This document shows, one piece after another, positions 4,455 to 31,471 of a DNA stretch of 35,502 bases. The stretch covers positions 1 through 35,502 of the forward strand of contig NZ_BJYS01000057.1 in assembly GCF_007991635.1 (NCBI RefSeq). The letters run 5' to 3'. Origin of the DNA: Adhaeribacter aerolatus (lineage in GTDB: Bacteria > Bacteroidota > Bacteroidia > Cytophagales > Hymenobacteraceae). The position numbers were made by a program, and so were the translations under genes. Under the pieces are notes generated by a model. That model did no database searches, had not been told where the DNA came from, and saw only the letters and a program-made list of their open reading frames with translations. How positions within the stretch are numbered: the first letter of the stretch is position 1; each line of letters opens with the position of its first letter.

Positions 4455-4547
4455 AGCAGTTATAATAATTTAATCCTTTAAGATAAGTAGTTACCAGGAA
4501 TAATTAAACAATTGGAAAAATAAAGAATTAAGTAAAGTGCAAAATCT

Positions 4548-4603
4548 TATTACTCTTTCTTTAAATTCTGTAACATGACCGGCTTTCCGGCAGATTATCT
4601 TTG
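4548..4603 (+). promoter_or_regulatory. copA promoter: 21-bp direct repeat plus -7 box
   Basis: Half-sites TATTAC (4548-4553) and TGTAAC (4569-4574) start exactly 21 bp apart. After 21 bp comes TATCTTTG (4596-4603), an exact match to the Bacteroidota -7 consensus TAnnTTTG. The second half-site occupies the -33 region, which lacks its own consensus, as expected for an activator-dependent promoter. The predicted transcript starts near 4610, about 20 bases before the ATG at 4632. The same spacing recurs at 11760-11815 and 32565-32620. Confidence 0.7.
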
Positions 4604-4631: not shown

Positions 4632-6899
4632 ATGAAAAGTGATATAGCTATTCCAACCGCTCCTTTAAAAACAGCGGATACCACAACTGCCCAGGTTTCG
4701 ATGCCGGTTACCGGTATGACCTGCGCCGCTTGTGCGGTAAGTGTTGAATCGATGGTAGCCAACACCCCAGGTGTTGCACAGGCGAACGTAAACTTTGCGA
4801 CCCAGACTTTACAGGTTACTTATAATCCAAAACAGGTTAAAGTAACCGATATGCAAAAGGCTTTGCAGTCCGTGGGCTATGACTTGATTATTGATACCGA
4901 AAATGCCCAGGAAATCCAGGAACAAACCCAGCAATCCCAATACCAGGCCTTAAAGAAGAAAACCTTGTTGGCCGGGCTGCTTACCTTACCCGTGGTTGTC
5001 ATTGGCATGTTCTTGATGGATTTGCCCTACGGTAACTGGATAATGATGGCTTTAAGTGCACCGGTACTGTTCTATTTCGGTCGTAACTTTTTTGTCAATG
5101 CTTTCCGGCAAGCCCGGCATGGCAAAGCCAACATGGATACCTTGGTGGCCCTAAGCACCGGTACCGCTTTTGCTTTTAGCGTTTTTAATACCCTTTATCC
5201 GGCGTTTTGGCACGCGCGCGGCTTGCATCCCCACGTTTATTTTGAAGCTTCGGCCGTGGTGATTGTTTTTATATTACTAGGCAGGTTGCTGGAGGAACGG
5301 GCGAAATCCAATACTTCCTCGGCCATTAAAAAGCTCATTGGTTTGCAGCCGAAAACCGTTTGGCTCGTGGAGGGCGACACCGAGCGGGAAGTGCCGGTTT
5401 CCACTATCCAAAAAGGTAACATTTTATTAGTGCGGGCCGGCGAAAAAGTGCCGGTAGACGGAGAGGTGTCTTTTGGATCCTCTTTTGTGGATGAAAGCAT
5501 GATTAGCGGCGAGCCGGTTCCCGTTGCAAAACAAGCGGGCGATAAAGTGTTCGCTGGTACCATCAATCAAAAAGGCAGCTTTCGGTTTGTTGCGGAAAAA
5601 GTGGGCAGTGAAACGTTACTGGCACAAATTATTAAGTTGGTGCAGGATGCCCAGGGTTCCAAAGCTCCCGTGCAGAAACTAGTCGATAAGATTGCCGGTA
5701 TTTTTGTGCCAATTGTATTTGTACTGGCGCTTATAAGCTTAACTACCTGGATAATTTTAGGGGGCGACAATGGTCTGACCCAAGGGTTATTAGCTTTTGT
5801 TACCGTGCTGGTAATCGCTTGCCCCTGTGCGTTAGGTTTGGCTACTCCCACCGCGATTATGGTAGGCGTAGGTAAAGGCGCAGAACAAGGCATTTTAATT
5901 AAAGACGCGGAAAGTTTAGAGCAGGCGTATCGCCTAAACGCCCTGATTTTAGATAAGACTGGTACCATTACCGAAGGAAAACCGGTGGTAACCGAATTAG
6001 TCTGGTCAGAGGAGGATCGCCTGCGGCAAATGGAGCTAAGTTCGGTATTGCTTTCCATTGAGCAGCAATCCGAACACCCATTGGCGGAGGCAGTTGTACG
6101 GTATTTACGGGACCAGGTAGGTTCATCGGTTGTGTTAGACAGCTTTGAGAGCGTAACGGGTAATGGCGTAAAAGCAAGCTGGCAAGGCCATCTTTACCAA
6201 ATTGGCAGCCCTAAATATATCAAGGCCCAAGGGATTTCTCTATCTGATGAGCTTTCCAGTTTAGCAGATACCTGGGCAGCGGCCGCTAATACCGTTATTT
6301 ATTTTGCTGAAGAAGGAAAGGCTATTGCCGTTCTGGCCATTGCCGATAAAGTTAAAGACACATCCGCCAAAGCAGTGCAAGCCCTGCAGCAACAGGGTAT
6401 TGAGGTTTACATGCTCACGGGTGATAATGCCCGGACCGCAGCTTCGGTGGCACAGCAAGTTGGCATAAAGCATTTTCAGGCAGAGGTAATGCCGGGTGAC
6501 AAAGCAGATTTTGTGAAAAAGCTCCAGGGCCAAGGCAAAGTGGTCGGGATGGTGGGCGACGGTATTAATGATTCCCAGGCACTGGCCCAAGCAAATGTTA
6601 GTATTGCCATGGGTAAAGGTTCGGATATTGCGATTGATGTAGCAAAAATGACTTTGATTACCTCCGATTTGCAATTGCTGCCAAAGGCGCTGAAACTATC
6701 CCGTTTAACGGTAAATGCCATTCGGCAAAACTTATTCTGGGCTTTTATTTATAACCTCATTGGCATTCCGATTGCCGCCGGCGTGCTCTACCCGGTCTAC
6801 GGATTTTTATTGGACCCAATGATTGCCGGAGCGGCGATGGCGCTGAGTTCGGTATCGGTGGTAGCTAATAGCTTGCGCTTAAAAGCCAAAAAGCTTTAA
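4632..6899 (+). CDS. copA: Cu(I)-exporting P1B-1-type ATPase CopA
   Basis: Inner-membrane pump that exports cytosolic Cu(I) (or Ag(I)) using ATP. The 755-residue product has one N-terminal HMA domain (GMTCAAC at 28-34), an actuator segment (DESMISGEPVPV, near 290), the transport motif CPCALG (397-402, the P1B-1 signature), the phosphorylation site DKTGT (441-445), SEHPLAEAV (Wilson-type HP motif), GDGIND, and the late membrane segments YNLIGIPIAAGVLYP and MALSSVSVVANSLRL typical of Cu(I) ATPases. The frame extends upstream to an ATG at 4575, but that lies before the -7 promoter box; ATG 4632 fits the predicted transcript start. It is monocistronic and divergent from the CPCC beta-propeller gene. 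Confidence 0.96.
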   Translation: MKSDIAIPTAPLKTADTTTAQVSMPVTGMTCAACAVSVESMVANTPGVAQANVNFATQTLQVTYNPKQVKVTDMQKALQSVGYDLIIDTENAQEIQEQTQQSQYQALKKKTLLAGLLTLPVVVIGMFLMDLPYGNWIMMALSAPVLFYFGRNFFVNAFRQARHGKANMDTLVALSTGTAFAFSVFNTLYPAFWHARGLHPHVYFEASAVVIVFILLGRLLEERAKSNTSSAIKKLIGLQPKTVWLVEGDTEREVPVSTIQKGNILLVRAGEKVPVDGEVSFGSSFVDESMISGEPVPVAKQAGDKVFAGTINQKGSFRFVAEKVGSETLLAQIIKLVQDAQGSKAPVQKLVDKIAGIFVPIVFVLALISLTTWIILGGDNGLTQGLLAFVTVLVIACPCALGLATPTAIMVGVGKGAEQGILIKDAESLEQAYRLNALILDKTGTITEGKPVVTELVWSEEDRLRQMELSSVLLSIEQQSEHPLAEAVVRYLRDQVGSSVVLDSFESVTGNGVKASWQGHLYQIGSPKYIKAQGISLSDELSSLADTWAAAANTVIYFAEEGKAIAVLAIADKVKDTSAKAVQALQQQGIEVYMLTGDNARTAASVAQQVGIKHFQAEVMPGDKADFVKKLQGQGKVVGMVGDGINDSQALAQANVSIAMGKGSDIAIDVAKMTLITSDLQLLPKALKLSRLTVNAIRQNLFWAFIYNLIGIPIAAGVLYPVYGFLLDPMIAGAAMALSSVSVVANSLRLKAKKL

Positions 6900-9279: not shown

Positions 9280-11388
9280 TTAATGCTTCATCTGGGTCTT
9301 TAGTAATTGGGCATTAATCGCCACGATTACAGTACTTAAACTCATCAAAACGGCCCCAATGGCCGGCGACACCATGATACCTTGCTGATACAAAACACCC
9401 GCTGCCAAGGGTAGCGCAATGACGTTATAACCCGTTGCCCAAATAATATTTTGAATCATCTTCCGGTAGGTAGCTTTCCCAAACAGCACCAAAGAGGCAA
9501 TGTCCTGTGGATTGCTATTAACCAGGATGATGTCCGCTGTTTCTGCTGCTACATCGGTGCCGGAGCCTACGGCAATGCCTACATCGGCCTGGGCCAGGGC
9601 CGGTGCATCGTTTACCCCATCTCCGGTCATGGCCACAAATTCTCCTTTGGCTTGCAGCTCTTTAATTTTTTCTTGCTTTTCGTGGGGCAATACATTCGCC
9701 AGAAAACCATCCATTTTTAAAGCCTCGCTCACACTTTTGGCCACCCGGTCATTATCGCCAGTGAGCAATAGGTTTTTAATGCCGTTCTCCTTTAATATCC
9801 GGATAGCCTCCGCCGATTCAGGCCGGATTTGGTCTTTTAGACTGATGAAGCCAACCACTTTATCCTGCACTAGGATGTAAACCACCGTTTCTACGCCATC
9901 TTCGGCGTTGCTGGCCGGCACCTGAATACCAAATTCTTGCATATAATTAGGGCCTACGACCTTGACCGATTTTCCTTCTACGATGCCTTCCAACCCTTTT
10001 CCGGGCAAATAATTAAACTGATCCGAAGCAGGAACCACAATCTTTTGCTCCTTTGCCTTTTTCAAAACTCCCTGCGAAATATAGTGCTCGGAATTCTGTT
10101 CCACGCCGGCCGCTAAGCGCAGCAGTTCTTGCTCAGCGTATTCCGTAGCAAAGGAAACCACTCGGGCTACTTCGTGGGAGCCTTGCGTTAAAGTGCCGGT
10201 TTTGTCGAAAATAATGGTGGTAATTTTACGGGAATTTTCGAAAGCGGTACGGTTCCGGATTAATAAGCCATTGTTGGCCGAAATAGCCGTGGAAATAGCC
10301 ACCACCAGCGGCACGGCCAAACCCAGGGCATGAGGACAAGAAATCACCATTACTGTTACCATGCGTTCCAGCGCAAAAGAAAGTTCAGCTCCCACGGCCA
10401 GCCACACGGCGAAGGTACCAAAGCCGGCAAAAAGGGCAATGTAGGTCAGCCAGCGGGCCGCTTTATCGGCCAGGTTTTGCGTTTCGGATTTGGTTTTCTG
10501 CGCTTCCTGCACCAGGTTAATCACTTTATTTAAATAACTCTCCGCGCCTGTGTTCTGTACCGTAACTTTTAAAGAACCATTGCCATTGATGGAGCCACCA
10601 ATAACCTTGTCATCTTTGGATTTTTGAACCGGTTTGCTTTCCCCCGTCAGCATGCTTTCGTTCAGGTAACTTTCCCCTTCCACAATCAGCCCGTCAGCCG
10701 GTACTTTTTCCCCCGGCTTAACTAAAATAAGGTCACCCTTTTGTAGGGCATCAATGCGGACATTCACCGTTTCCGGCCCCCGTATCAAGTGGGCTTCGGA
10801 AGGCATCATGCTTACTAGCAGCTCCAAAGCGCGCGAAGCCCCCATCACCGACTTCATTTCAATCCAATGGCCTAATAACATAATGACAATCAAAGTGGCC
10901 AGCTCCCAGAAGAAGTCCATGCCTTCTAAGCCAAAAACAATAGCCGTACTGTACACATAAGCCACGGTAATGGCAATCGCAATCAAGGTCATCATCCCCG
11001 GCGAGCCTTTCTTCAGCTCATCTTTTAGGCCGGTTAAAAAGGGCCAGCCGCCGTAGAAAAATATTATAGTAGAAAGCACCAAGGAGATATACATGTTATA
11101 AGGTATATTCAGCTGGTAGCCCAGAATTTGCTGCACCATCGGACTAATAATAATAACCGGCAGGGATAGTAGCAGCGAAATCCAGAATCTTTTCCGGAAA
11201 TCATCAATCATCATGGCATGATGGTCGTGGCCGTGTTCCCCGTGCCCTGGAGCAGTATTGCCCTCCTGGGGCATGGCGTGATTATGAGCGTGAACAGTTT
11301 TCTGGGCCAGATGCCCTTGCGTACTTTCCTGTAGGTCTTTGGCCTTGGCCTGCGAATTAGAGGAATGGTGATGATGGGAATGGTCCAT
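9280..11388 (-). CDS. copB: Copper-exporting P1B-3-type ATPase CopB
   Basis: Inner-membrane heavy-metal ATPase, 702 residues. It has no HMA domain; instead the N-terminus is His-rich (MDHSHHHHSS, then HAHNHAMP, then HGEHGHDHH, residues 1-60), as in CopB. Motifs in order are LTGES (247-251), CPHALG (351-356; CPH marks the P1B-3 class), DKTGT (395-399) and GDGVNDAPALAQADVGIAVG. The usual SEHP motif reads SEHY (in EQNSEHYISQG); the key His is kept but the Pro is replaced. P1B-3 members export Cu(I)/Cu(II) or Ag. It follows the HMA chaperone gene by 82 bp, which contains a hairpin that could reduce readthrough, and leads into the 106-residue gene and fbaB. Confidence 0.94.
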   Translation of the reverse strand: MDHSHHHHSSNSQAKAKDLQESTQGHLAQKTVHAHNHAMPQEGNTAPGHGEHGHDHHAMMIDDFRKRFWISLLLSLPVIIISPMVQQILGYQLNIPYNMYISLVLSTIIFFYGGWPFLTGLKDELKKGSPGMMTLIAIAITVAYVYSTAIVFGLEGMDFFWELATLIVIMLLGHWIEMKSVMGASRALELLVSMMPSEAHLIRGPETVNVRIDALQKGDLILVKPGEKVPADGLIVEGESYLNESMLTGESKPVQKSKDDKVIGGSINGNGSLKVTVQNTGAESYLNKVINLVQEAQKTKSETQNLADKAARWLTYIALFAGFGTFAVWLAVGAELSFALERMVTVMVISCPHALGLAVPLVVAISTAISANNGLLIRNRTAFENSRKITTIIFDKTGTLTQGSHEVARVVSFATEYAEQELLRLAAGVEQNSEHYISQGVLKKAKEQKIVVPASDQFNYLPGKGLEGIVEGKSVKVVGPNYMQEFGIQVPASNAEDGVETVVYILVQDKVVGFISLKDQIRPESAEAIRILKENGIKNLLLTGDNDRVAKSVSEALKMDGFLANVLPHEKQEKIKELQAKGEFVAMTGDGVNDAPALAQADVGIAVGSGTDVAAETADIILVNSNPQDIASLVLFGKATYRKMIQNIIWATGYNVIALPLAAGVLYQQGIMVSPAIGAVLMSLSTVIVAINAQLLKTQMKH

Positions 11389-11470: not shown

Positions 11471-11683
11471 TTAGGAGAGCGGCTCGATTTTAAAGCCAGC
11501 CTTCTCAATGGCTTCTATTACTTCTTCCTCGTTGACGGCACTGCCTTCCACGGTTAATATTTTATCTGGATTATTCGTATCTACCTGCCATTTTTCAATG
11601 CTCTTCTCCTGGTTCAGAAAGGGCGTTACCGTAGCTACACAACCGCCACATTTAATGTTGGTTTTGAATTTTAAAGTTTCCAT
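11471..11683 (-). CDS. HMA-domain copper chaperone-like protein
   Basis: A 70-residue single heavy-metal-associated domain. The metal-binding loop reads IKCGGCVATVTPFLN, so the usual GMTCxxC is replaced by KCGGC, a version common in Bacteroidota. The remainder (beta-strand with ILTVEGSAV, helix with EEEVIEAIEKAGFKIEPL) completes the ferredoxin-like fold. It probably carries Cu(I) in the cytosol to CopB or CopA. It is the first gene after the operator-promoter at 11760-11815 and is followed by a hairpin, then copB. Confidence 0.9.
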   Translation of the reverse strand: METLKFKTNIKCGGCVATVTPFLNQEKSIEKWQVDTNNPDKILTVEGSAVNEEEVIEAIEKAGFKIEPLS

Positions 11684-11759: not shown

Positions 11760-11815
11760 CAAAGATACCGGGTAGGCGAAGGGAATATGTGATATAATTC
11801 GGATAAAGTGTTATA
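11760..11815 (-). promoter_or_regulatory. hma-copB promoter: 21-bp direct repeat plus -7 box
   Basis: On the minus strand TATAAC (11815-11810) and TATCAC (11794-11789) start 21 bp apart, followed after 21 bp by TATCTTTG (11767-11760), identical to the copA -7 box. The promoter again lacks a -33 consensus; the second half-site lies there. The predicted start is near 11753, giving a 5' leader of about 70 bases before the hma ATG at 11683. Total length is 56 bp, as at the copA and HYC_CC_PP promoters. Confidence 0.75.
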
Positions 11816-12897: not shown

Positions 12898-13242
12898 CTA
12901 GTAAATTTTACCAGCAAGGGAGCGGCAGGCCTCTTCGCACCGGCGGCAAGCTTCGGCACATGCCCGGCAGTGGTCCATGTGTTGGGCGTGCTTTTCGCAT
13001 TCTTCGCCACAGGCGGCGCAAATGGCGGCACAGGCATCCAAAAACACCTGGACATTTTCTGAATTGCGGGCTAAGGCATCGGCTGTAGTACGGCAAATGG
13101 CGGAACAATCGCGATCTAATTGAATGCACCGGATCATCATTTTAACATCTTCTTCTTGCAAACAGGCGGTAGCACAATGCTCACATTCGGCCGCACAAGC
13201 CACTAAAGCATCAATAATTGGTTTATACTGGGAATTATGCAT
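12898..13242 (-). CDS. Cys-rich four-helix-bundle copper storage protein (Csp3-like)
   Basis: A 114-residue protein with 16 Cys, spaced mostly three or four residues apart as CxxxC and CxxC along helices: Cys16, 20, 23, 27, 39, 46, 50, 71, 75, 78, 82, 92, 95, 99, 102 and 106. This is the pattern of the Csp family (DUF326), in which Cys line the core of a four-helix bundle and hold many Cu(I) ions. There is no signal peptide, so it is a cytosolic store like Csp3. It heads a three-gene operon and has a copper-operator-like direct repeat (13340-13366) about 100 bp upstream. Confidence 0.92.
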   Translation of the reverse strand: MHNSQYKPIIDALVACAAECEHCATACLQEEDVKMMIRCIQLDRDCSAICRTTADALARNSENVQVFLDACAAICAACGEECEKHAQHMDHCRACAEACRRCEEACRSLAGKIY

Positions 13243-13339
13243 AATTAGGTTATTTGTGGTAAAACATAAATATTCATTAGCCAGAAATATTTCATCGCCG
13301 GCATATCTTATTGTTTTACCCCAATTTGAGGTAATCCGT

Positions 13340-13366
13340 TTTATACAATCTCTGAAAAGAGTTATA
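13340..13366 (-). promoter_or_regulatory. 21-bp direct repeat upstream of csp
   Basis: On the minus strand TATAAC (13366-13361) and TATAAA (13345-13340) start 21 bp apart; the second is preceded by ATTG exactly as at 32594. At the position where the other promoters have TAnnTTTG this site has TAAAACAA, so only the operator part is conserved. It lies 97 bp before the csp start and could also act on the divergent lipoprotein gene at 13482. Confidence 0.5.
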
Positions 13367-13481
13367 TCTTTTGGGTTTGTAATAAGGTGCTTTTGCCAGA
13401 TTTTCCCTTTCCCCTTACCTTTAATAGATAAAAATTTTATTCTATAAAGCCTAAAAGGCCTTTAAACCTAATTGAAATAGA

Positions 13482-18494: not shown

Positions 18495-18552
18495 CTAAGG
18501 GCCTGTATTAAATCAGCGATTACTTTTGATTGACCCGGCAAATAAATGAATT

Positions 18553-18579
18553 TGTATAATTTGTGATAACAGTGATATA
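18553..18579 (-). promoter_or_regulatory. 21-bp direct repeat upstream of cusA copy 1
   Basis: On the minus strand TATATC (18579-18574) and TATACA (18558-18553) start 21 bp apart, each preceded by AATT or AAT. It lies 94 bp upstream of the -7 box at 18451-18458, nearly the same distance as in the homologous region before the triple-HMBD gene. Confidence 0.4.
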
Positions 18580-19964: not shown

Positions 19965-21104
19965 TTATCTATTATTCACCTTCAGCTTTTCTTTTAAATT
20001 CTTGAAAATGCTTACCGGATAAGGGGTTCCAATATTAAAACCTAAGTCTTTAATGTCTTCTAAAATGGTCATTTTTGCACCGGGACTAACCTTTTCCCAG
20101 ATAGAAGGCTTTAAAAACCAATGGTCCGTACCACGTATCATCCATGTTTCTACCATAGTCAGGATAGATATTCCGTCCTTTAGCACAGCGTTGAGATATA
20201 CTTTAATGTAGTCTTCGTCTTTTTTTAACCCGGAGATGGTGATAGTGGTTTTATCTTTTTGGGGTAAGACATTTATCATAACGATTATGTTTTTCTCGGT
20301 TCCATCATGATTAATTTTAAAATTAGCTCGTCCCGCTAAGCAGACAGGTATTTGTATGTCCACTTGGTAGGCAGTGCCCCAAAAATCGTCTTTACCTGCC
20401 AGCAGATCGGTTCCTTTTCTATAATAGGTGTGTATTTTGCTAATTTCCTTATCCAAGTGCGTTAATTCCTTCGCAATTGATTTTTCAAAAGTGTCTGGGA
20501 AAGAATATTTTAATTCCTGAATCTTAACTCCTTTCGATGCTAAGAATTGGAAGAAATAATCTTCTCTGTACTTTTTCAGAAGAGCCTCCTCTCGAAATTC
20601 TTTGTATGTCGCCAGTAATTGACTATAAATTTGCTTTTGGTATTTCTTAATGAAATATTCTCTGCAAATAGTTCTATAAAGCTGAAGGTTAAAGTGCTGC
20701 GGGGTGTTAAATTGGTTCTTTTCTTCAAAATCCTGAAAAAGTGTTTCGTGTACGGTACAAAATCCAGGAAAAGTTGAAGCTAGATTAACACCAATTTTAT
20801 CCAAGATAAAGGAGCCGGAAGCGTGATCAAATTTTGGTCTTAATACATGCCCATCTTCTTCAATAGCGCCTAAAAATAGCTTTTTAGAAATGGTATGAGA
20901 ACTCTTAATAGACTTTCTTTTGCAATCCAGGTAAATGCAATCGTGATTACTCCGATATAGTTTTAAGCTGTTGCTAACATGTTCAAAAAATAAACTCTTT
21001 CTAAGGTTCTCGGTTAAAACCTCATCCGGGTTTTCATGAAATGAAGTAATTACTTTATCAATACTTTCTGTTAAAAGCTGCTCAAATAACTCATTTATAT
21101 CCAT
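19965..21104 (-). CDS. Hypothetical protein with putative N-terminal zinc-finger-like motif
   Basis: A soluble 379-residue protein that I cannot assign. The N-terminal third has possible zinc ligands, Cys56-x4-Cys61 in CIYLDCKRKSIKSSHTISKK with His70, and Cys116-x2-His119 in ASTFPGFCTVHETLF. I recall this layout (C..C, SHxI, GxV, IGVxxASTFxGFCxxH) from many bacterial hypothetical proteins, some near defence genes, but have no function for it. A middle helical region (about 135-235) is rich in Lys, Glu and aromatic residues, and a beta-rich C-terminal domain follows. It is the last gene of the cus array, 26 bp after the HMA-AraC gene, yet its AT-rich codon use looks unlike its neighbours and suggests separate origin. 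Confidence 0.6.
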   Translation of the reverse strand: MDINELFEQLLTESIDKVITSFHENPDEVLTENLRKSLFFEHVSNSLKLYRSNHDCIYLDCKRKSIKSSHTISKKLFLGAIEEDGHVLRPKFDHASGSFILDKIGVNLASTFPGFCTVHETLFQDFEEKNQFNTPQHFNLQLYRTICREYFIKKYQKQIYSQLLATYKEFREEALLKKYREDYFFQFLASKGVKIQELKYSFPDTFEKSIAKELTHLDKEISKIHTYYRKGTDLLAGKDDFWGTAYQVDIQIPVCLAGRANFKINHDGTEKNIIVMINVLPQKDKTTITISGLKKDEDYIKVYLNAVLKDGISILTMVETWMIRGTDHWFLKPSIWEKVSPGAKMTILEDIKDLGFNIGTPYPVSIFKNLKEKLKVNNR

Positions 21105-21130
21105 GTGCTTTTAAAAGTGGTATAAAGTCA

Positions 21131-21733
21131 TTATGGGAGCGGCTTTTTTAAACTATCCAGGGGTAAACGGTCCCGAATTGCTAGTTTCTTATAATCAGAA
21201 GGGGTATAACCGGTAATGGCTTTAAACTGCTTCGAAAGATGGCTTAAACTGCTGTAATGTAAACGGGTCGCTATTTCTCCCAACGATAATTCTTCATAAT
21301 CCAGCTGCGCTTTAATGTATTCAATCTTTTGCAGAATAATAAACCTTTCAATGGTCATGTGTTCAACCGAAGAAAAGGCATGGCTCAGGGTGCTGTAATC
21401 TTTTCCAATAGCCTGGCTTAAATAAGTTGAATAATTGGTGGTTATCTTCTCGCTTTTATAATGGATTAAATCGATGAGCACCGTTTTAATCTGTTCTACC
21501 AACTTCAATTTTTTATCCTCTAACAGCTCAAAGCCATAATCCTCCAACACTTCTTTTACCTTTTCTTTTTCTGCTGCTTCTAGAGGCCGGGCTAGTTCTA
21601 CCCAGCCCAGTTGCACCTCCAGAACCGGCAGTTCCAGGCGGGCAAATTGTTCTTGTATTATCCGGATACACCGCGGGCATACCATATTTTTAATATTTAA
21701 GGTAGCCCGGCTTTCGGTGCCTTGTGGTTCCAT
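21131..21733 (-). CDS. HMA-AraC family metal-responsive regulator (putative)
   Basis: A 200-residue cytosolic protein joining a heavy-metal-associated domain (about residues 10-75, loop NMVCPRC with Cys19 and Cys22) to an AraC-type DNA-binding domain (about 100-185: LSLGEIATRLHYSSLSHLSK is the first helix-turn-helix area, then QFKAITGYTPSDYKKL). HMA loops bind Cu(I), so it is a likely copper sensor and transcriptional activator. AraC proteins usually bind direct repeats about 21 bp apart, which is exactly the spacing found upstream of copA, hma, HYC_CC_PP and three other loci here. It is the eleventh gene of the cus array, 63 bp after the DUF2911 gene. Target assignment is inference. Confidence 0.88.
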   Translation of the reverse strand: MEPQGTESRATLNIKNMVCPRCIRIIQEQFARLELPVLEVQLGWVELARPLEAAEKEKVKEVLEDYGFELLEDKKLKLVEQIKTVLIDLIHYKSEKITTNYSTYLSQAIGKDYSTLSHAFSSVEHMTIERFIILQKIEYIKAQLDYEELSLGEIATRLHYSSLSHLSKQFKAITGYTPSDYKKLAIRDRLPLDSLKKPLP

Positions 21734-21796
21734 GTTATCAGGATATAGAGTGGAGCGTTTAATGAAATAAAGCTGATATTGAAATATAGCAGGGTT

Positions 21797-22426
21797 TTAC
21801 AACGCTACCGGAACGGGAATGCGTAAACGCTCCCAATGCATCTCTATCGTTCCTTTATTCTCGCCTGCTGCCTTTACCACGTAGCGGAGGCGTTCTTGGG
21901 GTTTATCTGTTTTTTCAACCTGAACCGGAAGGCGCAGAATATCCTCTTTCGCAGAATATTCATCGGCCAGGTGCTGTTCCCAATTCTTATTCAGGATTAC
22001 GGTCCATTCCTTCTCGCCTGGTATGGTAAAAAAGGCATACTTGCCGGCCGGTATTGCCTGGCCGCCTATCTGGATAGGGCCATCGGTTTCAATAGTCGTC
22101 GCGGAGTGCGCGCCAGTTACCCAAACTTGGTCATAAGGAACCAGGCCACCCCAAACTACCCGTTTGCGAACGGCTGGTGAATGATAGTTTATAACCACGT
22201 TGACCGAACCAATCTGGCCGGTAGCTACGGCTTTCAGACTGCCTTTTAACGTGTCCGGCTCCGGTTGCTCGGCAATCGTGACCGCATCTTCCGGATTGGC
22301 TGTCGTAGGTGCCGCAGTAGGTTTTTCTATCTCTTGCTTTTGGGTTGTTTCCGGCTTTTGGTTGCAGAACGTGAAGGAAAAGCTAATGGCTACGAGGGCA
22401 AAGTAATGAGTGAATTTTAGTGACAT
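21797..22426 (-). CDS. DUF2911 lipoprotein-like protein
   Basis: A 209-residue exported protein, probably a lipoprotein (hydrophobic leader ending FTFC, Cys21; the -1 and -3 residues are atypical), then a Pro/Thr/Glu-rich spacer and a DUF2911 domain: VNVVINYHSPAVRKRVVWGG, LVPYDQVWVTGAHSATTIET, IPAGKYAFFTIPGEKEWTVI and LNKNWEQHLADEYSAKEDIL. DUF2911 is a Bacteroidota envelope family of unknown function. It lies 40 bp after the DUF2231-like gene and 63 bp before the regulator, within the cus array. Confidence 0.88.
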   Translation of the reverse strand: MSLKFTHYFALVAISFSFTFCNQKPETTQKQEIEKPTAAPTTANPEDAVTIAEQPEPDTLKGSLKAVATGQIGSVNVVINYHSPAVRKRVVWGGLVPYDQVWVTGAHSATTIETDGPIQIGGQAIPAGKYAFFTIPGEKEWTVILNKNWEQHLADEYSAKEDILRLPVQVEKTDKPQERLRYVVKAAGENKGTIEMHWERLRIPVPVAL

Positions 22427-22466
22427 CGGTTAGTTATTTGATGAGTTGAATAAGACAGATGAAGTA

Positions 22467-23159
22467 TTAATGCTGATGCTGTTCCAGGAATTTTCCTTGT
22501 GGTCCTACTCCTTCTATATGGACCAACTGGGCACCGTAATGGCCCGCCATGCTGACGGCATAACCGGCACCAATCAAAATCACGGCGGCAACGGCTATGC
22601 TCCAGCGCTGGCCCCGGAAAACCAACACGCTTAGCAGCTGGGCTAATAATCCAAGGCCGGCCAGGTAAACCGTGTAATCAGCATATTTATCGTGCTGTTC
22701 TAAGACGAGCTCCGCGTGGGCAGAAAGCCCGGAGGTATGCGGGTGCGACCAATGAGAGGAGGCGTATGCCGTCACAAAACCAACCAACACCATGATGGTC
22801 ACGGCCCAATTGAGTTCTTTCTTCTGAAACAGAATATTGAGAAATTGCATGGCTGCCGCAATCATTAGCAGCATTATTGGGAAATGGACAATCAGCGGGT
22901 GGATGTGCGGAAAGTCCGCGAAAGAGGCATGTACGGTCCGGGGATTGGCTTCGTGGCCGGCGTGCTCCGCCGGGGTTACATCATTTAAAACTATCGTATC
23001 ACGGAAAGCCTTGGGTTCTTGTTTGATGGTATCAGCCGGGGTAGGTTTGGCTTTTTTCTCGTGTTTTTCACCCCCGTGCGCCATAACCCCCGGCGGATTT
23101 AAAATTAGGGTCAGGCACAAAAAGGAAAGCAGGAAAAGAAAAAGGTTGGTTGGTTTCAT
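22467..23159 (-). CDS. DUF2231-like membrane protein with His-rich N-terminus
   Basis: A 230-residue protein: signal sequence (about 1-27), an exported linker with several His (AHGGEKHEKK, AEHAGHEANP), then a four-helix membrane domain beginning with FPHIHPLIVHFPIMLLMIAA (HPxxVHFPI at 87-95 is the DUF2231 signature). Further His lie in the loop ASSHWSHPHTSGLSAH and at the C-terminus (EQHQH). The His pairs could bind metal or haem; related domains resemble cytochrome b-type modules. It lies 36 bp after the beta-propeller lipoprotein gene in the cus array. Function unknown; metal handling at the membrane is likely from context. Confidence 0.82.
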   Translation of the reverse strand: MKPTNLFLFLLSFLCLTLILNPPGVMAHGGEKHEKKAKPTPADTIKQEPKAFRDTIVLNDVTPAEHAGHEANPRTVHASFADFPHIHPLIVHFPIMLLMIAAAMQFLNILFQKKELNWAVTIMVLVGFVTAYASSHWSHPHTSGLSAHAELVLEQHDKYADYTVYLAGLGLLAQLLSVLVFRGQRWSIAVAAVILIGAGYAVSMAGHYGAQLVHIEGVGPQGKFLEQHQH

Positions 23160-23195
23160 TAAGTTGTTGAAGTTTAAAGATTGGGGAAAATGATT

Positions 23196-24272
23196 TTAGG
23201 GCCGGATAACTAAACCATTCGGTTTTTTACCGACCGGAACCGTAGCGGTCACCAGATGATCGACAACCTTAATGACGGACACGGTATTGGCCCCCTGGTT
23301 GGTGACGTAAGCCGTTGTGCCATCCGGGGAAAAGGCAATGGCGTGCGCATCGGCTCCGGTGGTAATGCTGCCTTTCAGGTTCCACTGACCGTTATTTTCC
23401 TGGTAATAAACAATTTTTCCATTGGTGGCATCGCTTACCCATAATTCCTGTTGGGCGGGATGATACGCGACATAGCCGGGTTTAAAGCCCAGCGGAATAG
23501 TTTCGGTAGCAGTGCCGGAAGCTACGGCAATTTCCGTCACGGTGCCCTCTGTTTCATTGTCCACGTACATGAAGCCATTGGCGGCTGGCCAGGCTCCTAC
23601 CGGGTCTTTGCCTACCGGCACGGTGCCCAGTACCGTTTTGGTATCCGGGTTGATGATAGAGACCGTCGCATCCATGGTATTGGCGGCAAATACTTTGGTG
23701 CCATCGGCGGAGAAAGTAACTTCTGACAAGCCTTTGCCGACCAGGATGGTATTTTTCAGGCTCCAGTTACCGGTATTGTAAACCAGCACATGGCTTTGCT
23801 GTTCATCCTCCTGCGCAATCCATAATTCAGAGCCATCCCGGTTAAAAACACCGTTATGGGGCATTTTGGGCAGCATGAGTTCTTTTTCAATTTTCCCGGT
23901 GTAGCTATTGAGCACCATGACCTTGAAACCGCTCATGCCCCCCATGCCGCCGGAGTCGTGGCCACCGCTTAAATCGGTACTGGTAATGGCAACGGCCAGC
24001 TTTGTTTTATCCGGACTGATATTAATATGGTGCGGGAATGTAGCTCCGTTCAATGATAGTTGCTCCTTTTTGGAGAGGTCGTTTAAATTAAGCACCTCGA
24101 TGTTGTTTGATTCGCCATTCACCACATAGGCTGCCGGGTAATCAATATTCTTTTCTTCCCCACCGCCCATATCATCCATGTCGTCCATGTCGGCTTCGGT
24201 ATGGAAGTTACAGGCCGTAAAGCCGAAAATTAAAAGAGCTCCTGCCAGTGCTTTTTTTATTTTGAAAAGCAT
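23196..24272 (-). CDS. YncE-like beta-propeller lipoprotein
   Basis: A 358-residue lipoprotein (lipobox FTAC, Cys21) with an acidic, Met-rich spacer (DMDDMDDMGGGEE) and seven-bladed propeller repeats of the YVTN/YncE type: YVVNGESNNIEVLNLNDL, LPKMPHNGVFNRDG, KVFAANTMDATVSIINPDTK, GYVAYHPAQQELWVSDATNG, and TAYVTNQGANTVSVIKVVDH. The frame runs on to 24407, but that extension lacks a signal peptide and overlaps the 39-residue gene; ATG 24272 gives a proper lipoprotein signal. Such propellers are common in Bacteroidota metal operons. The Asp/Met spacer may bind copper (inference). Confidence 0.88.
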   Translation of the reverse strand: MLFKIKKALAGALLIFGFTACNFHTEADMDDMDDMGGGEEKNIDYPAAYVVNGESNNIEVLNLNDLSKKEQLSLNGATFPHHINISPDKTKLAVAITSTDLSGGHDSGGMGGMSGFKVMVLNSYTGKIEKELMLPKMPHNGVFNRDGSELWIAQEDEQQSHVLVYNTGNWSLKNTILVGKGLSEVTFSADGTKVFAANTMDATVSIINPDTKTVLGTVPVGKDPVGAWPAANGFMYVDNETEGTVTEIAVASGTATETIPLGFKPGYVAYHPAQQELWVSDATNGKIVYYQENNGQWNLKGSITTGADAHAIAFSPDGTTAYVTNQGANTVSVIKVVDHLVTATVPVGKKPNGLVIRP

Positions 24273-24295
24273 GATTCCTGCGGTTAATCGCTGGG

Positions 24296-24415
24296 TTATT
24301 GACTTAACTGTTGTAGGACTACAAAACCAATCAGACTGGCTATTAAGGCATACCAGGCAAGTCGCAGGTATGGCTTGTTCTTTTTGGGCGGTTCGGTTTG
24401 ACAACATGATTTCAT
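24296..24415 (-). CDS. Small CC-motif membrane peptide in cus array
   Basis: A 39-codon gene too small for ordinary ORF cut-offs. The product starts MKSCCQTEPPKKNK, with a vicinal Cys pair at residues 4-5 and a basic stretch, and ends in a single hydrophobic helix (about 19-34, LAWYALIASLIGFVVL). It begins 7 bp after the stop of the upstream CusB-like gene and ends 23 bp before the propeller gene, which is ideal operon packing. Short CC plus one-helix proteins of this style occur beside cus genes in other Bacteroidota, from memory. The cytoplasmic CC could bind Cu(I) next to the RND pump (inference). Confidence 0.65.
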   Translation of the reverse strand: MKSCCQTEPPKKNKPYLRLAWYALIASLIGFVVLQQLSQ

Positions 24416-24422
24416 TCGTTTA

Positions 24423-25643
24423 TTAATGGTTATGGCCGGCCATCTGGTCAGTGCCTTTCTTTAAAACATATTCGCTGTAGAGTAAATAAGCGCCCGTTAC
24501 CACTACCGTATCGTTGGGGCTTAGTCCGCTGGCAATAGCTACCTGGTTCGCACTTTCGGGCCCCAGGGTAACCATTTTGGAGTTGAAGGTATTCTCGCCC
24601 GTTTTTACCCAAACGTGCGCCCCCCGGGAATCCCGGATAACGGCATCGAGCGGCAGGGTAAGCGCCTGATTCGTGGGAGCCGGCAGGTTAATGGTCGCCT
24701 GCGTGCCGGGAATTAATGCTCCTTTGGGATTAGGCAGTTTAGCCCGGGCGACCACTACCTGGCTGTTCTGGCGGAACTCCGGATTGATAAAACTTACTTT
24801 GGTTTTAATAGGAGCCGGCTGGCCCGGCACGGTCACTTCAATGGGGGTGCCCACCTGTATTTGCCCGGCTTCCTGCGCGTATAATTCCGCTTCTACCCAA
24901 ATGGTATTAAAGCGGCTCAGGCGGTAAAGCAAACTGCCTTCGGCCACATAAACGCCTTCGGCCGCGGCTATCTCCGTCACGATGCCGGACGTTGGTGCCA
25001 GGAAGGTAATGCGGGCATCTAACTGCCGGGTGTGGGCCACCCGGTTAACCTGGGCCGGCGATAAGCCCATGAGCAGGAGTTTCTTTTTGGCTGCCGCCAG
25101 CACAGAAGCAAACTGTTTCTCTCCCGGAAAGGCTTTCACCTGGTCCAGGGCTAATAAATATTCCTGTTCCAGGGTCAGCAACGATTCGCTGTACAAATCA
25201 TAAAGCGGCTGTCCTTTTTGGATACGCCGCCCGGTTTCTTTGACATACAACCTTTCAATACGACCGGCTGCGCGGCTGCTGATTAAATCCGCCTGGGTTT
25301 GGTCCACCGCTAAGCGCCCGGTCAGGATGGTATTACTGCCTACTTGCCCCATCTGAACCGGCCGGGTAGAAATATTGCCCAGTTGCATCTGCGTTTCGCT
25401 GAGCATGATGCTGCCGGCGTTCTTTTCCGTAGCCGGTTGTTTTTTGACCGGTACCAGGTCCATGCCACAAATCGGGCACGAGCCGGGTGCACTTTCCACG
25501 ATTTGCGGATGCATGGGGCAAGTGTAAGTGGTACCTGTTCCGGCCGTATCAACCTCATGGTGCTCGTGTTTATCTTTATTGGTACAGGCGACTATCAGAA
25601 GAGCCACGAGCCATACGCCTGCTGTTTTTAGAATCTTTTTCAT
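24423..25643 (-). CDS. cusB: CusB-like RND adaptor with N-terminal HMBD (second of two)
   Basis: Periplasmic membrane-fusion protein linking the RND pump to the outer-membrane channel, 406 residues. Lipobox IVAC (Cys20), then His-rich KDKHEHHE, then an HMBD (YTCPMHPQIVESAPGSCPIC, followed by GMDLVPV; about 40-66), then the adaptor core: ISSRAAGRIERLYVKETGRR (lipoyl/barrel-sandwich), an alpha hairpin with LEQEYLLALDQV, FLAPTSGIVTEIAAAEGVYV and the beta-barrel/MP domains. The C-terminus is AGHNH, another possible metal ligand. Its start overlaps the stop of the preceding adaptor gene by 4 bases, so the two are translationally coupled. Confidence 0.93.
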   Translation of the reverse strand: MKKILKTAGVWLVALLIVACTNKDKHEHHEVDTAGTGTTYTCPMHPQIVESAPGSCPICGMDLVPVKKQPATEKNAGSIMLSETQMQLGNISTRPVQMGQVGSNTILTGRLAVDQTQADLISSRAAGRIERLYVKETGRRIQKGQPLYDLYSESLLTLEQEYLLALDQVKAFPGEKQFASVLAAAKKKLLLMGLSPAQVNRVAHTRQLDARITFLAPTSGIVTEIAAAEGVYVAEGSLLYRLSRFNTIWVEAELYAQEAGQIQVGTPIEVTVPGQPAPIKTKVSFINPEFRQNSQVVVARAKLPNPKGALIPGTQATINLPAPTNQALTLPLDAVIRDSRGAHVWVKTGENTFNSKMVTLGPESANQVAIASGLSPNDTVVVTGAYLLYSEYVLKKGTDQMAGHNH

Positions 25644-26995
25644 CTGTTATTTTCTGCTACCCGAATAAAACTTTCGCTATCTACCAGGAACTGAGCATTG
25701 GTGGCTATCACATCCTGGGCCTTCAGTCCCGATAGTACTTCTACCATCCCATCGGCCCGTTGGCCAGCCTGCACGCTGATGGGCTTGAAGACCCCGTTCA
25801 CTTTCAGAAAAGCTACGGACTGCGTGCCAATGTCCAGCACCGCTTCTTTGGGCACCCAGAGGGCGGTACCAGTACTGTAAGTAGCTTTACCGGTGAGGAG
25901 CTGGCCAATGAGCGTGGATTTATTCTCCGCTGGTAAGGAGGCCCGCACCTGGGCAAAATTCTCTCCGGCCTCGTAAATTGGTTCCACCAATAATACCTTA
26001 GCGGGCACCGGCTCCCCTGGCAATTGGTTAAAAGTAATGGTGATAGGCGTTCCTATGGTGAGTTGCCCAGCCTGGCTGCCGGGCACGTTGAACTGGGCCC
26101 AAACCTGCGAAGCATCCACTACTTTTAGCAAAGCTTGCCCGGTAGTCACGTACATTCCTTCCCGGATGGCAAAACCACTATTTGGGGTTGGTGCCGCCGG
26201 GCTGGTTCCGCCGCCACCGCCAGCACTCCCCGCGCCACCCATACCACCCATACCATCTCCCCCGGCTGCTGGAGCAGCGGAAGCGGGTGCCGTGGGAGTA
26301 GGCGCGGCGCTTACCGCCGGGTCCAGCACATAGCCGGTGTAAGGGCTGTACACGGAAAAGGTATAGGTCTCCTGGCCGCTCCGGGCCAGTTGTTTTATTT
26401 GGCCTTCCGTAGCTCCTAATAATTGTAGTTTTTGCTTTGCGCCCTGAATCAGGGAAGTATTAGTGGGGTCATTTTGCAGCAGGTAAAGCAATTCTTTCTG
26501 GGCGGTTACCAGTTCCGGGCTGTAGATGTCGTACAGCTTTTGCCCTTTGCGTACCGGCTGATAGTTGAATTGCACATATAATTTTTCAATCCGCCCCCCG
26601 AAGCGGGCCGGAATAAGGTATTGCTGGCGGGTATCATAGGTCACCACGCCGCTCATAATAATTTCGTTCTGTACCTGCTTTTGCACCGGTTGGGTGGTCT
26701 TGATACGAGAGACCACCGTTTGGTTCGCGGGCTGCAGCAAGTAGTTTAAATCCGAACTCACGGGGGCAGCGGGCGCATTAGCGGTTCGCTTGGCTACCAG
26801 GTCCATGCCGCAGATGGGGCAGGAACCCGGCTCGTCCCGGACAATTTGCGGGTGCATGGGGCAGGTGTATGCTACCTCGGGAGCCGTCGCTCCCTGCTCC
26901 CCTCCCTGGCCGGGCTTATCATTACAGGCCGTAAAAGTGAACGGCAGCAGTAAAATCAATAGCCCGATTAACTTATTTTTCCAGTTCTTTCTCAT
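25640..26995 (-). CDS. cusB: CusB-like RND adaptor with N-terminal HMBD (first of two)
   Basis: A second periplasmic adaptor, 451 residues. Lipobox FTAC (Cys24), HMBD (YTCPMHPQIVRDEPGSCPIC, followed by GMDLVAK; about 43-69), then the adaptor core (LIPARFGGRIEKLYVQFNYQ, an alpha hairpin with LVTAQKELLYLLQND, and FSVYSPYTGYVLD). Inside the barrel-sandwich region, before GFAIREGMYVTTGQALLKV, it has a low-complexity insertion of about 45 residues of Ala, Pro and Gly with Met (GGDGMGGMGGAGSAGGGGG), absent from its neighbour. Its start overlaps the TolC-like gene by 23 bases and its stop overlaps the next adaptor start by 4 bases. Two different adaptors may form mixed trimers or serve the two RND pumps. 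Confidence 0.93.
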   Translation of the reverse strand: MRKNWKNKLIGLLILLLPFTFTACNDKPGQGGEQGATAPEVAYTCPMHPQIVRDEPGSCPICGMDLVAKRTANAPAAPVSSDLNYLLQPANQTVVSRIKTTQPVQKQVQNEIIMSGVVTYDTRQQYLIPARFGGRIEKLYVQFNYQPVRKGQKLYDIYSPELVTAQKELLYLLQNDPTNTSLIQGAKQKLQLLGATEGQIKQLARSGQETYTFSVYSPYTGYVLDPAVSAAPTPTAPASAAPAAGGDGMGGMGGAGSAGGGGGTSPAAPTPNSGFAIREGMYVTTGQALLKVVDASQVWAQFNVPGSQAGQLTIGTPITITFNQLPGEPVPAKVLLVEPIYEAGENFAQVRASLPAENKSTLIGQLLTGKATYSTGTALWVPKEAVLDIGTQSVAFLKVNGVFKPISVQAGQRADGMVEVLSGLKAQDVIATNAQFLVDSESFIRVAENNR

Positions 26996-28220
26996 AATTT
27001 ACCCCTATCAGGTACAGTTGCTCTAAGTTGTTGAGGTATTCCATTTGGGCCATGTTCAGCGCTTCCCAGGCATCAATCACCAGGGGTAATTGGCCGGTAT
27101 TTTGTTCGTAGCTGAGCAGAGTGGTTTCGTAGTTGCGCCGCAGGGCCGGAATGATTTTGGCTTCGTAATTCTGTACCTGGGTCCGCTTGGTTTGCAATTC
27201 CAGCGCCATGCTTTTTACCATGCTTTGGGCTTCGTTCAGGATATTTTCCCGGCCTTTTTGCATACCCGCAATTTCCAGCTTCATGGCTTTGATGTTAGAC
27301 TTGTACATTTTCGAAGACCAAGGGGCAATAGGAATAGAAACCATGCCCATGGCGGTAAACGTCTGGGCCATCATCTTATCGCGAGGCATCATGTTTTCCA
27401 GGCGGATGCTAAAATCCGGTAGCCGTTGCAGACTTTCCAGGCGCAGGTTGAGCCGCATCGATTCAATGGTCTGGTCTATTTGCCGCACATCGCTGCGAGT
27501 GGTACGCAGTTCCGCCGTGTCGGCTAAGGCAATCGGTTCCGGTACCCGAACCAGGGTGTCCACAGCAAAACGGTTCTCCTGGGGCAGGTTCATCAGCATA
27601 TTAAGCTGAATGTTTTTCATGCCAATTTCACTGTCATTCATGAGCAGCATATTTTCGACTTCGGCCAATCGGCCTTCCGCTTTGTAGATGCTCCCCAACG
27701 AGCTTTGGTTATAAGGGTAGCGGACCCGGGACAGCTTCAGCATAAACTGCATGATGCGCTGACTTTCCAGCAGCACCGATTTTTTCTTTTCCAGCACCAC
27801 CCATTGCAAATAGGCGGTTTTGGCCTGGGCCCGCAATTGGTTGTAAGTAACATCCCGCCCGGCTTCTTCAATGGCCGCTTTAGAACGCTGGTAATTTTGC
27901 CGGGCCTTGAGTTTCGCCGGGTTGGTAATTTCCTGCTCTACGGACGTCATCACCATGCCTCTGTCCTGTCCCTCCATAATCATTTGGCCCGGATAAGGGA
28001 CCATGAATACCCCCGCTCCGACCATGGGCGCCATCTGGCTGATGGCTCCCTCGGCCATGGCGTTCTGGGCCTGGCCCCTTAACCGGAATTCCTGCAGCAT
28101 CGGGTTATTCTGGGATATTTTGCTAAGTACCGAGTCCAGCGGGAGCACCGGTACCTGCGCCTTGGCGGTTGTTCCCAGCAACAGCAGCCAAGCCATTATA
28201 TATAATCTAGTGGTTAACAT
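26973..28220 (-). CDS. cusC: TolC/CusC-like outer-membrane efflux protein
   Basis: Outer-membrane channel component of the tripartite efflux system, 415 residues. It has a signal peptide (ending TTAKAQ), then the two-fold TolC layout of long amphipathic helices: LDSVLSKISQNNPMLQEFRL near the N-terminus, ITNPAKLKARQNYQRSKAAI, TAYLQWVVLEKKKSVLLESQ, and in the second half KGRENILNEAQSMVKSMALE and NYEAKIIPALRRNYETTLLS. Met-rich patches (MIMEGQDRGMVMTSVEQ, NMMPRDKMMAQTFTAMGMVS) fit a copper channel. The listed start overlaps the cusA C-half by 14 bases; an internal ATG at 28196 would avoid the overlap and still leave a signal peptide. It lies between the RND and adaptor genes. Confidence 0.9.
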   Translation of the reverse strand: MLTTRLYIMAWLLLLGTTAKAQVPVLPLDSVLSKISQNNPMLQEFRLRGQAQNAMAEGAISQMAPMVGAGVFMVPYPGQMIMEGQDRGMVMTSVEQEITNPAKLKARQNYQRSKAAIEEAGRDVTYNQLRAQAKTAYLQWVVLEKKKSVLLESQRIMQFMLKLSRVRYPYNQSSLGSIYKAEGRLAEVENMLLMNDSEIGMKNIQLNMLMNLPQENRFAVDTLVRVPEPIALADTAELRTTRSDVRQIDQTIESMRLNLRLESLQRLPDFSIRLENMMPRDKMMAQTFTAMGMVSIPIAPWSSKMYKSNIKAMKLEIAGMQKGRENILNEAQSMVKSMALELQTKRTQVQNYEAKIIPALRRNYETTLLSYEQNTGQLPLVIDAWEALNMAQMEYLNNLEQLYLIGVNYEKELEK

Positions 28221-30105: not shown

Positions 30106-30135
30106 GGTTTAAGGTTGAATGAGCCACGCCATTTC

Positions 30136-31416
30136 TTATAAAAATGATTTCTCGTCATGCTGCGCATCGGCTAAGTGCCGGTAAGCATTCTCCACCATCA
30201 CAATGGCATCATCCACAATCACCCCAATAGACAGCGCTATTCCGGTCAGCGACATAATGTTGGAGGAAATGCCGAAGGTATTTAACAAGATGAAGCCAAT
30301 AGCCACGGAAAGCGGGAGCTGAATAATGATGATTAAAGCGCTCCGCCAGTGAAAAAGAAAGATGAATACGATTAAGGAGGCTACTACCATCTCTTCAATG
30401 AGCGTAGTTTTTACCGAATTAACCGAATCATTTATCAGACCACTGCGGTCGTAAACAATATTAAATTTTACCCCTTTGGGTAAACCAGCCGAAACTTCCT
30501 GCATTTTGGCTTTCACCTTTTCGATTACTTCGGCCGCATTTTCACCGTAGCGCATCACCACAATGCCGCCCACGGCTTCGCCTTCCCCGTTTAAATCAAA
30601 AATGCCTAATCGGCTTTCCCCGGTCATTTGCACGGTGGCAATATCCCCTATCCGGACCGGAATGGTATTCTGGGTGGTGATGGGAATATTCTCTATTTCT
30701 TCGGTGGATTTGAGGTAGCCAGTCGTTTTAATAATGTACCCGATATCACTCATCTCAAATTTGCGGCCCCCGCTCTCGTTATTGTTGGCCCGCACGGCGG
30801 TCATTACCTGGGGTACCGACAGGTTAAAATAGGTTAGTTTATTAGGGTCCAGGGTAACCTGATACTGTTTCTGAAAGCCGCCGAAAGAAGCAATTTCACT
30901 CACGCCGGCTACATTCTGGAGTGAGAATTTTACGTACCAATCCTGGATAGCCCGCTGCTCACCCAAATCCATGCCGGGTGCATCGAGGGTGTACCACAAG
31001 ATATGCCCCACACCAGTGCCATCCGGGCCTAAAGTGGGGACCGCTCCTTCGGGCAGTAAGCGGTTGGCGTAATTTAGGCGTTCCAGTACCCGTTCCCGCG
31101 CCCAGTAAATGTCAGTTTGGTCTTCAAAAATGACGTAAATAAAACTCATGCCGAACATGGACACGCCCCGCACATACTTCACCTGGGGCATTCCCTGCAG
31201 GTTCGTCACCAGCGGGTAGGTCACCTGATCTTCGATAATTTGCGGGCTACGGCCCATCCACTCGGTAAAAACAATTACCTGGTTTTCCGATAAATCCGGT
31301 ATGGCATCTACTTTATTGGTGCTTACCGAGTAGATACCCCAACCAAACAGACCGGCGGCGATGAGCAGCACAATCATGCGGTTGCGCAGAGAAAATGAAA
31401 TTAGTTTACCTATCAT
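30136..31416 (-). CDS. cusA: CusA/CzcA-type RND pump, N-terminal half (copy 2)
   Basis: First part of the main RND pump, 426 residues: TM1 (RNRMIVLLIAAGLFGWGIYS), NKVDAIPDLSENQVIVFTEW, GRSPQIIEDQVTYPLVTNLQ, the ASFGGFQKQYQVTLDPNKLT block and TM2-TM4, ending with IALSIGVIVDDAIVMVENAY and then RHLADAQHDEKSFL. The proton-relay motif is VDDA, while copy 1 has VDAG, so the two pumps differ in their TM4. The break is after VENA plus 15 residues, in the TM4-TM5 loop. Two pieces meeting in a cytoplasmic loop could assemble without loss of fold. It follows the HMBD lipoprotein gene by 55 bp. Confidence 0.92.
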   Translation of the reverse strand: MIGKLISFSLRNRMIVLLIAAGLFGWGIYSVSTNKVDAIPDLSENQVIVFTEWMGRSPQIIEDQVTYPLVTNLQGMPQVKYVRGVSMFGMSFIYVIFEDQTDIYWARERVLERLNYANRLLPEGAVPTLGPDGTGVGHILWYTLDAPGMDLGEQRAIQDWYVKFSLQNVAGVSEIASFGGFQKQYQVTLDPNKLTYFNLSVPQVMTAVRANNNESGGRKFEMSDIGYIIKTTGYLKSTEEIENIPITTQNTIPVRIGDIATVQMTGESRLGIFDLNGEGEAVGGIVVMRYGENAAEVIEKVKAKMQEVSAGLPKGVKFNIVYDRSGLINDSVNSVKTTLIEEMVVASLIVFIFLFHWRSALIIIIQLPLSVAIGFILLNTFGISSNIMSLTGIALSIGVIVDDAIVMVENAYRHLADAQHDEKSFL

Positions 31417-31471
31417 GGTCTATAGGAGATTGCCCTCCCGGCCTTGGAGACCAGGAGGAATAATTAAATAA

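Follow-up and report, generated by a model that had tools for sequence, protein, structure and literature searches.

Three promoters of copper-type genes in Adhaeribacter aerolatus (Hymenobacteraceae) share a 56-bp layout, which raises the question of which protein reads it and in response to which signal. They lie in a stretch of 35,502 nt, here called the window (assembly GCF_007991635.1, contig NZ_BJYS01000057.1, positions 1-35,502), and an initial annotation had described them as two half-sites 15 bp apart followed, after 21 bp, by a -7 box, with identical spacing at the three loci. Positions and spacing proved exact to the base:

4548-4603, plus strand, site 1, copA promoter, TATTAC-N15-TGTAAC-N21-TATCTTTG
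11815-11760, minus strand, site 2, hma-copB promoter, TATAAC-N15-TATCAC-N21-TATCTTTG
32620-32565, minus strand, site 3, HYC_CC_PP promoter, TATAAC-N15-TATAAC-N21-TAGTTTTG

All three sites carry the exact TAnnTTTG -7 box of sigma-A promoters, as had been claimed, and the TTTG -33 box is absent, with neither TTTG nor TTG occurring within any N21; the main text of PMC7366714 treats the general importance of the -33 box as doubtful. The pattern has 3 matches in the window against 0.15 expected (up to 3 mismatches), a statistic that is circular because the pattern was derived from the same three sites.

The second half-sites had been described as ATTnTRTMAC. The half-sites are longer than that: in a gap-free alignment of 46 sites they form a direct repeat of CAAAATTnTRTAAC, each unit about 14 bp long and the pitch 21 bp, and the operator ends 21 bp 5' of TAnnTTTG. 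Before the first core, C is found at -7 in 34 of the 46 sites, A at -4 in 43, A at -3 in 32 and T at -2 in 31. The equivalent positions before the second core, 21 bp on, have A at 17 in 34 sites, A at 18 in 45 and T at 19 in 39, with C at 14 in only 20, and conservation extends to CT at 8-10, with T at 10 in 38 sites. These flanking positions were not imposed by the search pattern, which imposed the cores and the -7 box, the first core being free in 14 of the 46 sites. L117 (plus) and L156 (minus), two of the 16 sites from the phylum, were left out of the matrix training set as evident chance matches before any counts were made, and 14 of the 46 training sites come from the same 80 loci that were later scanned. 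With a leave-out matrix, built without the window sites and near-identical sites, the three operators score far above the maximum of 22.1 bits reached in 200 dinucleotide shuffles:

4540..4578, plus strand, copA operator, two half-sites in direct orientation with cores TATTAC 4548-4553 and TGTAAC 4569-4574, 45.5 bits
11785..11823, minus strand, hma-copB operator, cores TATAAC 11815-11810 and TATCAC 11794-11789, 44.8 bits
32590..32628, minus strand, operator ahead of HYC_CC_PP and the run of Cus-type genes, cores TATAAC 32620-32615 and TATAAC 32599-32594, 53.3 bits

The main text of a Flavobacterium psychrophilum study (PMC9723704) puts the -7 box between -12 and -5, and the transcript starts expected in the window follow from setting the box in the same way:

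4596..4603, plus strand, copA -7 box TATCTTTG, transcript start expected at 4608
11760..11767, minus strand, hma-copB -7 box TATCTTTG, transcript start expected at 11755
32565..32572, minus strand, HYC_CC_PP -7 box TAGTTTTG, transcript start expected at 32560

The starts predicted in the initial annotation (4610, 11753 and 32558) lie within 2 bp of these. Given this placement, the two cores occupy -60 to -55 and -39 to -34, much as araI1-I2 is arranged for AraC, which is the geometry of an AraC-type class II operator, with half-sites at a 21-bp pitch and, for the start position so predicted, the nearer one over the -35 region.

The genes behind the three sites, together with the candidate regulator that one of them leads to, are as follows:

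4632..6899, plus strand, copA, P1B-type copper ATPase (TIGR01511 over cut-off; start at 4632, not 4575, by comparison with relatives)
11471..11683, minus strand, 70-aa HMA protein (Pfam HMA)
9280..11388, minus strand, copB-like P1B ATPase with a His-rich N-terminus
32092..32487, minus strand, small Cys-rich protein of HYC_CC_PP type (label of the initial annotation)
19965..31747, minus strand, co-directional run behind site 3, with an HMBD protein, a split CusA, CusC, two CusB, others, the HMA-AraC gene and the gene 19965-21104
21131..21733, minus strand, HMA-AraC regulator, proposed operator binder, 200 aa with a CopZ-like domain and an AraC-type domain
19965-21104, minus strand, next gene after HMA-AraC, encoding 379 aa without a Pfam match

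The claim that all downstream genes are copper genes stands for their copper-type context and less firmly for the HYC_CC_PP protein, which matches no Pfam or NCBIfam family and is given a copper role because Cus-type genes lie behind it. From 32487 to 19965 the gaps between genes are at most 63 bp, except for 344 bp after HYC_CC_PP, and the gene order is kept in two related loci (L271, L272), so the run behind site 3 is probably one operon. If so, the regulator would be autoregulated; on contig C14 of the same genome, a regulator gene again lies behind a site-bearing gene. The CusA-type RND pumps of the window (28207-31416 and 15034-18196, minus strand) are each split in two genes at about position 417 of ACR_tran. 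In L271 (with an overlap of a few bases), L267 and L272 the first pair is divided at the same point, and this conservation makes it look like a two-gene CusA pump rather than a frameshift.

Further operators of the same kind may stand before other genes of the window:

13336..13374, minus strand, fourth operator, before the Csp1-like gene, cores TATAAC 13366-13361 and TATAAA 13345-13340
12898..13242, minus strand, Csp1-like copper storage protein with DUF326 (passes the cut-off of Pfam but not that of NCBIfam)
18551..18577, minus strand, possible fifth operator, before the second CusA-type gene pair, operator part 18.4 bits

The operator part of the fourth scores 30.1 bits, where shuffles reach at most 19.7, and the whole site, in which TAAAACAA makes a poor -7 box at the 21-bp distance, scores 15.1 bits, under the shuffle maximum of 22.1; the matching position in a related locus (L270) is also operator-like, with 24.6 bits. 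The possible fifth is within reach of chance, its 18.4 bits being above the 95% point of the shuffles (13.9) and under their maximum (19.7), and it has no -7 box at 21 bp.

The protein encoded at 21131..21733 joins two parts. Its C-terminus has the roughly 100 residues with two helix-turn-helix motifs that define the AraC/XylS family and matches the Pfam models HTH_18 (58 bits, cut-off 33.6) and HTH_AraC (43.8 bits, cut-off 26.6). Its N-terminus has the beta-alpha-beta-beta-alpha-beta order and CxxC of an HMA domain, the cysteines forming a putative copper site; the window copy carries MxCxxC, and Pfam HMA leaves the window regulator unmatched at E 0.001. An AlphaFold2 model from a 53-row alignment (pLDDT 93, pTM 0.83) has an E-H-E-E-H-E domain followed by seven helices. 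Profile matches link positions 2-64 to CopZ and to HMA domains of copper ATPases and positions 77-182 to AraC, SoxS, GadX and YesN, and among the 17 matches listed no sequence aligned over both the CopZ-like and the AraC parts. Foldseek returned AraC-type structures first (GadX, AraT, AdpA, MarA-type) and, weakly, CopZ (2qif, E 0.011). The genome has three HMA-AraC paralogs, none with an NCBIfam model over cut-off. The third is accompanied in two genomes of genus g1 (L092 9394-10281, L091 9754-10702) by a gene for a small basic membrane peptide in front, and has no site above 5 bits nearby.

Taken together, the 56-bp layout is probably the operator-promoter of a copper regulon under an HMA-AraC class II activator that would be switched by Cu(I). 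This reading draws on the sites, their spacing, the gene context, the architecture of the regulator, its co-occurrence with the motif and the linkage of the two, all taken from sequence; binding, metal sensing, activation, autoregulation and the transcript starts are predicted from these. In the proposed mechanism, two HMA-AraC protomers would sit head-to-tail on the direct repeat CAAAATTnTRTAAC, and since a pitch of 21 bp is two helical turns, both would lie on one face of the DNA. The core of the downstream half-site, at about -39 to -34, would occupy the position of the -33 element beside TAnnTTTG, so that the bound regulator would act as a class II activator. The signal would be Cu(I) or a different thiophilic metal, whose binding to the CxxC of the CopZ-like domain would switch the regulator on. 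The activated protein would induce copper export (CopA, CopB and Cus) and the small HMA protein, and probably Csp1 storage and, via the site-3 promoter, its own gene.

Random placement of the layout in the genome had been named in the initial annotation as evidence against it, and enrichment ahead of copper genes in related genomes as evidence for it. Scanning all 6,678,525 bases of the assembly (95 contigs) turned up 5 exact matches, all ahead of copper-type genes; the two outside the window precede a second copA-type gene (C1:405086) and an HMA gene (C14:151077). Allowing 2 mismatches added 10 matches, against 6 for the pattern read backwards, and only one of the ten, C14:153748, is taken as credible. 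It scores 37.6 bits and lies before a Lactamase_B/Rhodanese gene that is followed by the HMA-AraC gene of contig C14. The sites of that region (L093 9523-9578, 9755-9810 and 12194-12249) surround this second HMA-AraC gene, and two of them stand in tandem before one HMA gene. Fusions of Lactamase_B and Rhodanese are found in two copper loci of the genome (L093 10664-12115, L265 10004-11338) and possibly connect copper with sulfur metabolism.

In 150 genomes of the family, 38 exact matches were found in 22 genomes, against 1 match for the backwards control. Of these, 33 lie outside the A. aerolatus genome, and all of the 28 for which loci were available precede copper-type genes: 14 of copA type, 10 of HYC_CC_PP type, 2 small HMA genes, 1 of copB type and 1 multicopper oxidase, most of them named by comparing translations with the window proteins and the multicopper oxidase by Pfam. 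A further exact match (G041), outside the 28, likewise stands before an HMA gene. The annotation's proposal of an undescribed copper operator in activator-dependent promoters is supported by these scans, at the level of sequence.

Exact matches occur in 7 of the 8 genomes of the window's own genus (g1). The same 150-genome scan gave none in genera g4 and g5, and the idea that these lack the system was rejected, as they have a diverged version of the operator, CAAATTA-TGC... N15.GTACY N21 TTnCTTTG. The 15/21 spacing is kept in all 12 fetched loci of these genera, which were selected by a good regulator match and in which copA lies beside an HMA-AraC gene of a distinct clade, a joint divergence of operator and regulator that speaks for the HMA-AraC reading. 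By the family profile, a homologue of the regulator is present in 149 of the 150 genomes, the exception being a genome that is 78% complete.

Beyond the family, 80 phylum loci (1.33 Mb) were retrieved with the window regulator aligned to 13 relatives. Nearly all are labelled Bacteroidota; one locus is from Melioribacteraceae, and three HMA-AraC genes lie on contigs labelled Acidobacteria (L105), Rickettsiales (L135) and Amaricoccus (L157), which are either mis-binned or contaminating contigs or cases of transfer. Over these loci, the distance from TRTMAC to TAnnTTTG, counted from 8 to 39 bp, has 16 matches at 21 and 0-3 at each other value, and the distance from TRTMAM to TRTMAC, counted from 4 to 39 bp, has 24 matches at 15 and 3-12 at each other value. 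The matrix finds 68 sites above 9 bits in 55 of the 80 loci, where a single round of shuffling yields 1; the 25 regulator loci left with no site count against the HMA-AraC reading. In 35 of the 68 cases, the site starts 8-389 bp 3' of the stop codon of the regulator gene, on the same strand. The proteins chosen downstream include 40 with E1-E2 ATPase, 49 with HMA and 4 with HMBD domains (overlapping counts) and 5 more that are Cys-rich and of HYC type by motif. These tallies are inexact because the automatic choice passed over small HMA genes at L094, L109, L132 and L154 and an HYC-type gene at L098. Four of the 68 sites precede genes with no obvious copper link (the second site of L138, L144, L147 and L156). 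Proteins with DUF4396 are encoded directly behind sites in two loci (L156 9636-10163, L097 9626-10312) and are possibly a new copper-related family.

In a tree of 84 regulator sequences, in which the nearest relative of the window protein is from Rufibacter hautae, loci with and without a site are intermixed throughout, with 16 label changes against a shuffled mean of about 23. The labels being spread over the whole tree, the site is not limited to one clade. Several paralogs occur in some other genomes too, which makes the pairing of sites with paralogs ambiguous and counts against the assignment. It is somewhat probable that the HMA-AraC proteins are phylum-wide, previously undescribed one-component copper sensors and that the regulon is ancient in Bacteroidota, the 15/21 geometry being retained as the half-site letters and the regulator drift together.

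The 80 loci cannot test the link between regulator and operator because they were selected for the regulator. Co-occurrence was therefore examined in the same 296 phylum genomes with a profile of the regulator (threshold E 1e-20) and with the motif relaxed to allow up to 1 mismatch. Of the 142 genomes that have the regulator, 67 contain the motif, compared with 10 of the 154 that lack it (Fisher p 2.6e-16, for genomes that are related to each other). The backwards control is found in 10 of the regulator-bearing and 14 of the regulator-free genomes, a level which places the motif at background where the regulator is absent. A match to the relaxed pattern is missing from 75 of the 142 regulator-bearing genomes, which speaks against the link.

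The promoters of copA were then compared in 30 of the 154 regulator-free genomes, including all 10 motif-positive ones, and in 30 of the 142 regulator-bearing genomes, 13 of them motif-positive; copA was matched in 27 and 29 of these, respectively, and 30 loci were obtained from each set, as three genomes and one genome, respectively, gave two. Upstream of copA, 15 of 30 regulator-bearing loci have a site above 5 bits against 0 of 30 regulator-free loci, 13 against 0 above 9 bits and 10 against 0 above 15 bits, for sets that were hand-picked from non-independent genomes and in which the regulator-free copA is on average more distant from the query. Two pairs of genomes, each pair from one genus, differ as predicted, with 39.3 bits in G224, which has the regulator, against -23.8 in G259, which does not, and 35.6 bits in G377 against -16.8 in G385. 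A second copA of the regulator-bearing G377 has no site, which counts against the link, as do the 15 of 30 regulator-bearing loci with nothing above 5 bits, and a third genus pair (G162 with and G183 without the regulator) has no copA site in either genome.

These data also bear on other readings of the layout. That it is an A+T-rich promoter pattern over-fitted by chance to three sites is hardly credible: TAnnTTTG is indeed frequent in the phylum and three sites were the source of the pattern, but the backwards controls (1 against 38 in the family), the spacing maintained across the 80 loci, the scores beyond those of 200 shuffles and the absence of a site from all 30 regulator-free copA promoters compared led this reading to be rejected. 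It is quite unlikely that the operator is real and read by another protein, such as CueR or another MerR-type protein, CsoR or a two-component response regulator, with HMA-AraC a mere neighbour in copper islands. The genome does have a CsoR-family gene over cut-off and MerR-type genes, and the regulator-bearing genomes that lack the relaxed motif fit this reading. Against it, the motif tracks the presence of HMA-AraC and lies just behind its gene in about half of the cases, and the sites of CueR and CsoR are inverted repeats, not direct repeats with a 21-bp pitch. The survey of other candidate readers covered the MerR and CsoR families. The best match to CueR (TIGR02044) in the whole genome has 65.2 bits for a cut-off of 147.4, and the best MerR gene lies in a 12-kb stretch with neither a recognised copper gene nor a site above 5 bits. 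The sole CsoR-family gene, on another contig, adjoins its own distantly related P-type ATPase, with no site above 5 bits in the 20 kb around it. CueR and CsoR were set aside as binders, the former for failing the cut-off and the latter for its site-free region.

An HMA-AraC operator that serves a repressor, or whose main signal is another thiophilic metal (silver, zinc or mercury) or a redox change sensed via the CxxC, is unlikely too, if a little less so than another reader. A half-site beside the -7 box could equally block the polymerase, and HMA domains bind several soft metals. The genes behind the 68 phylum sites are mainly of copper type, with P-type ATPases and HMA domains prevailing, and AraC, when it activates, is likewise arranged on a 21-bp direct repeat lying at about -60 to -34; both points favour a copper-switched HMA-AraC activator.

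The literature searched, made up of open-licence papers and with most subscription papers and preprints outside it, has no description of the operator or of HMA-AraC regulators and nothing on how Bacteroidota switch on copper genes; neither 'copper' nor 'AraC' occurs in the main texts of PMC9723704 and PMC7366714. What appears to be new in this proposed activator-operator system of AraC type is its sensing domain and a predicted copper regulon that spans the phylum. The system offers a candidate sensor, an operator and a regulon that can be tested directly, and the matrix can be used to annotate copper genes in gut, marine and soil Bacteroidota. If true, it would stand as a clear example of a transcription factor whose sensor derives from a metallochaperone domain, and the promoters could possibly serve as copper-inducible promoters for Bacteroidota.

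Among known systems, AraC of E. coli acts at araI1-I2 as a class II activator on tandem direct half-sites with a 21-bp pitch beside the promoter. The system described here is alike in its tandem 21-bp direct half-sites by the promoter and in its AraC-type DNA-binding domain, and differs in having a CopZ-like HMA sensor instead of a cupin, other half-site letters, the Bacteroidota -7 box and copper targets. CueR, of the MerR family, and CsoR control export genes of copA type, which are targets here as well, but they belong to different protein families and their operators are inverted repeats. The N-terminal 64 residues of the regulator match CopZ and the HMA domains of copper ATPases, and while CopZ/Atx1-type proteins are chaperones, here the HMA domain is fused to a DNA-binding domain. 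The three main sites have the same exact TAnnTTTG as Bacteroidota sigma-A promoters, the box of the g4 and g5 relatives being TTnCTTTG, and differ from these promoters in that a tandem operator fills the -33 region.
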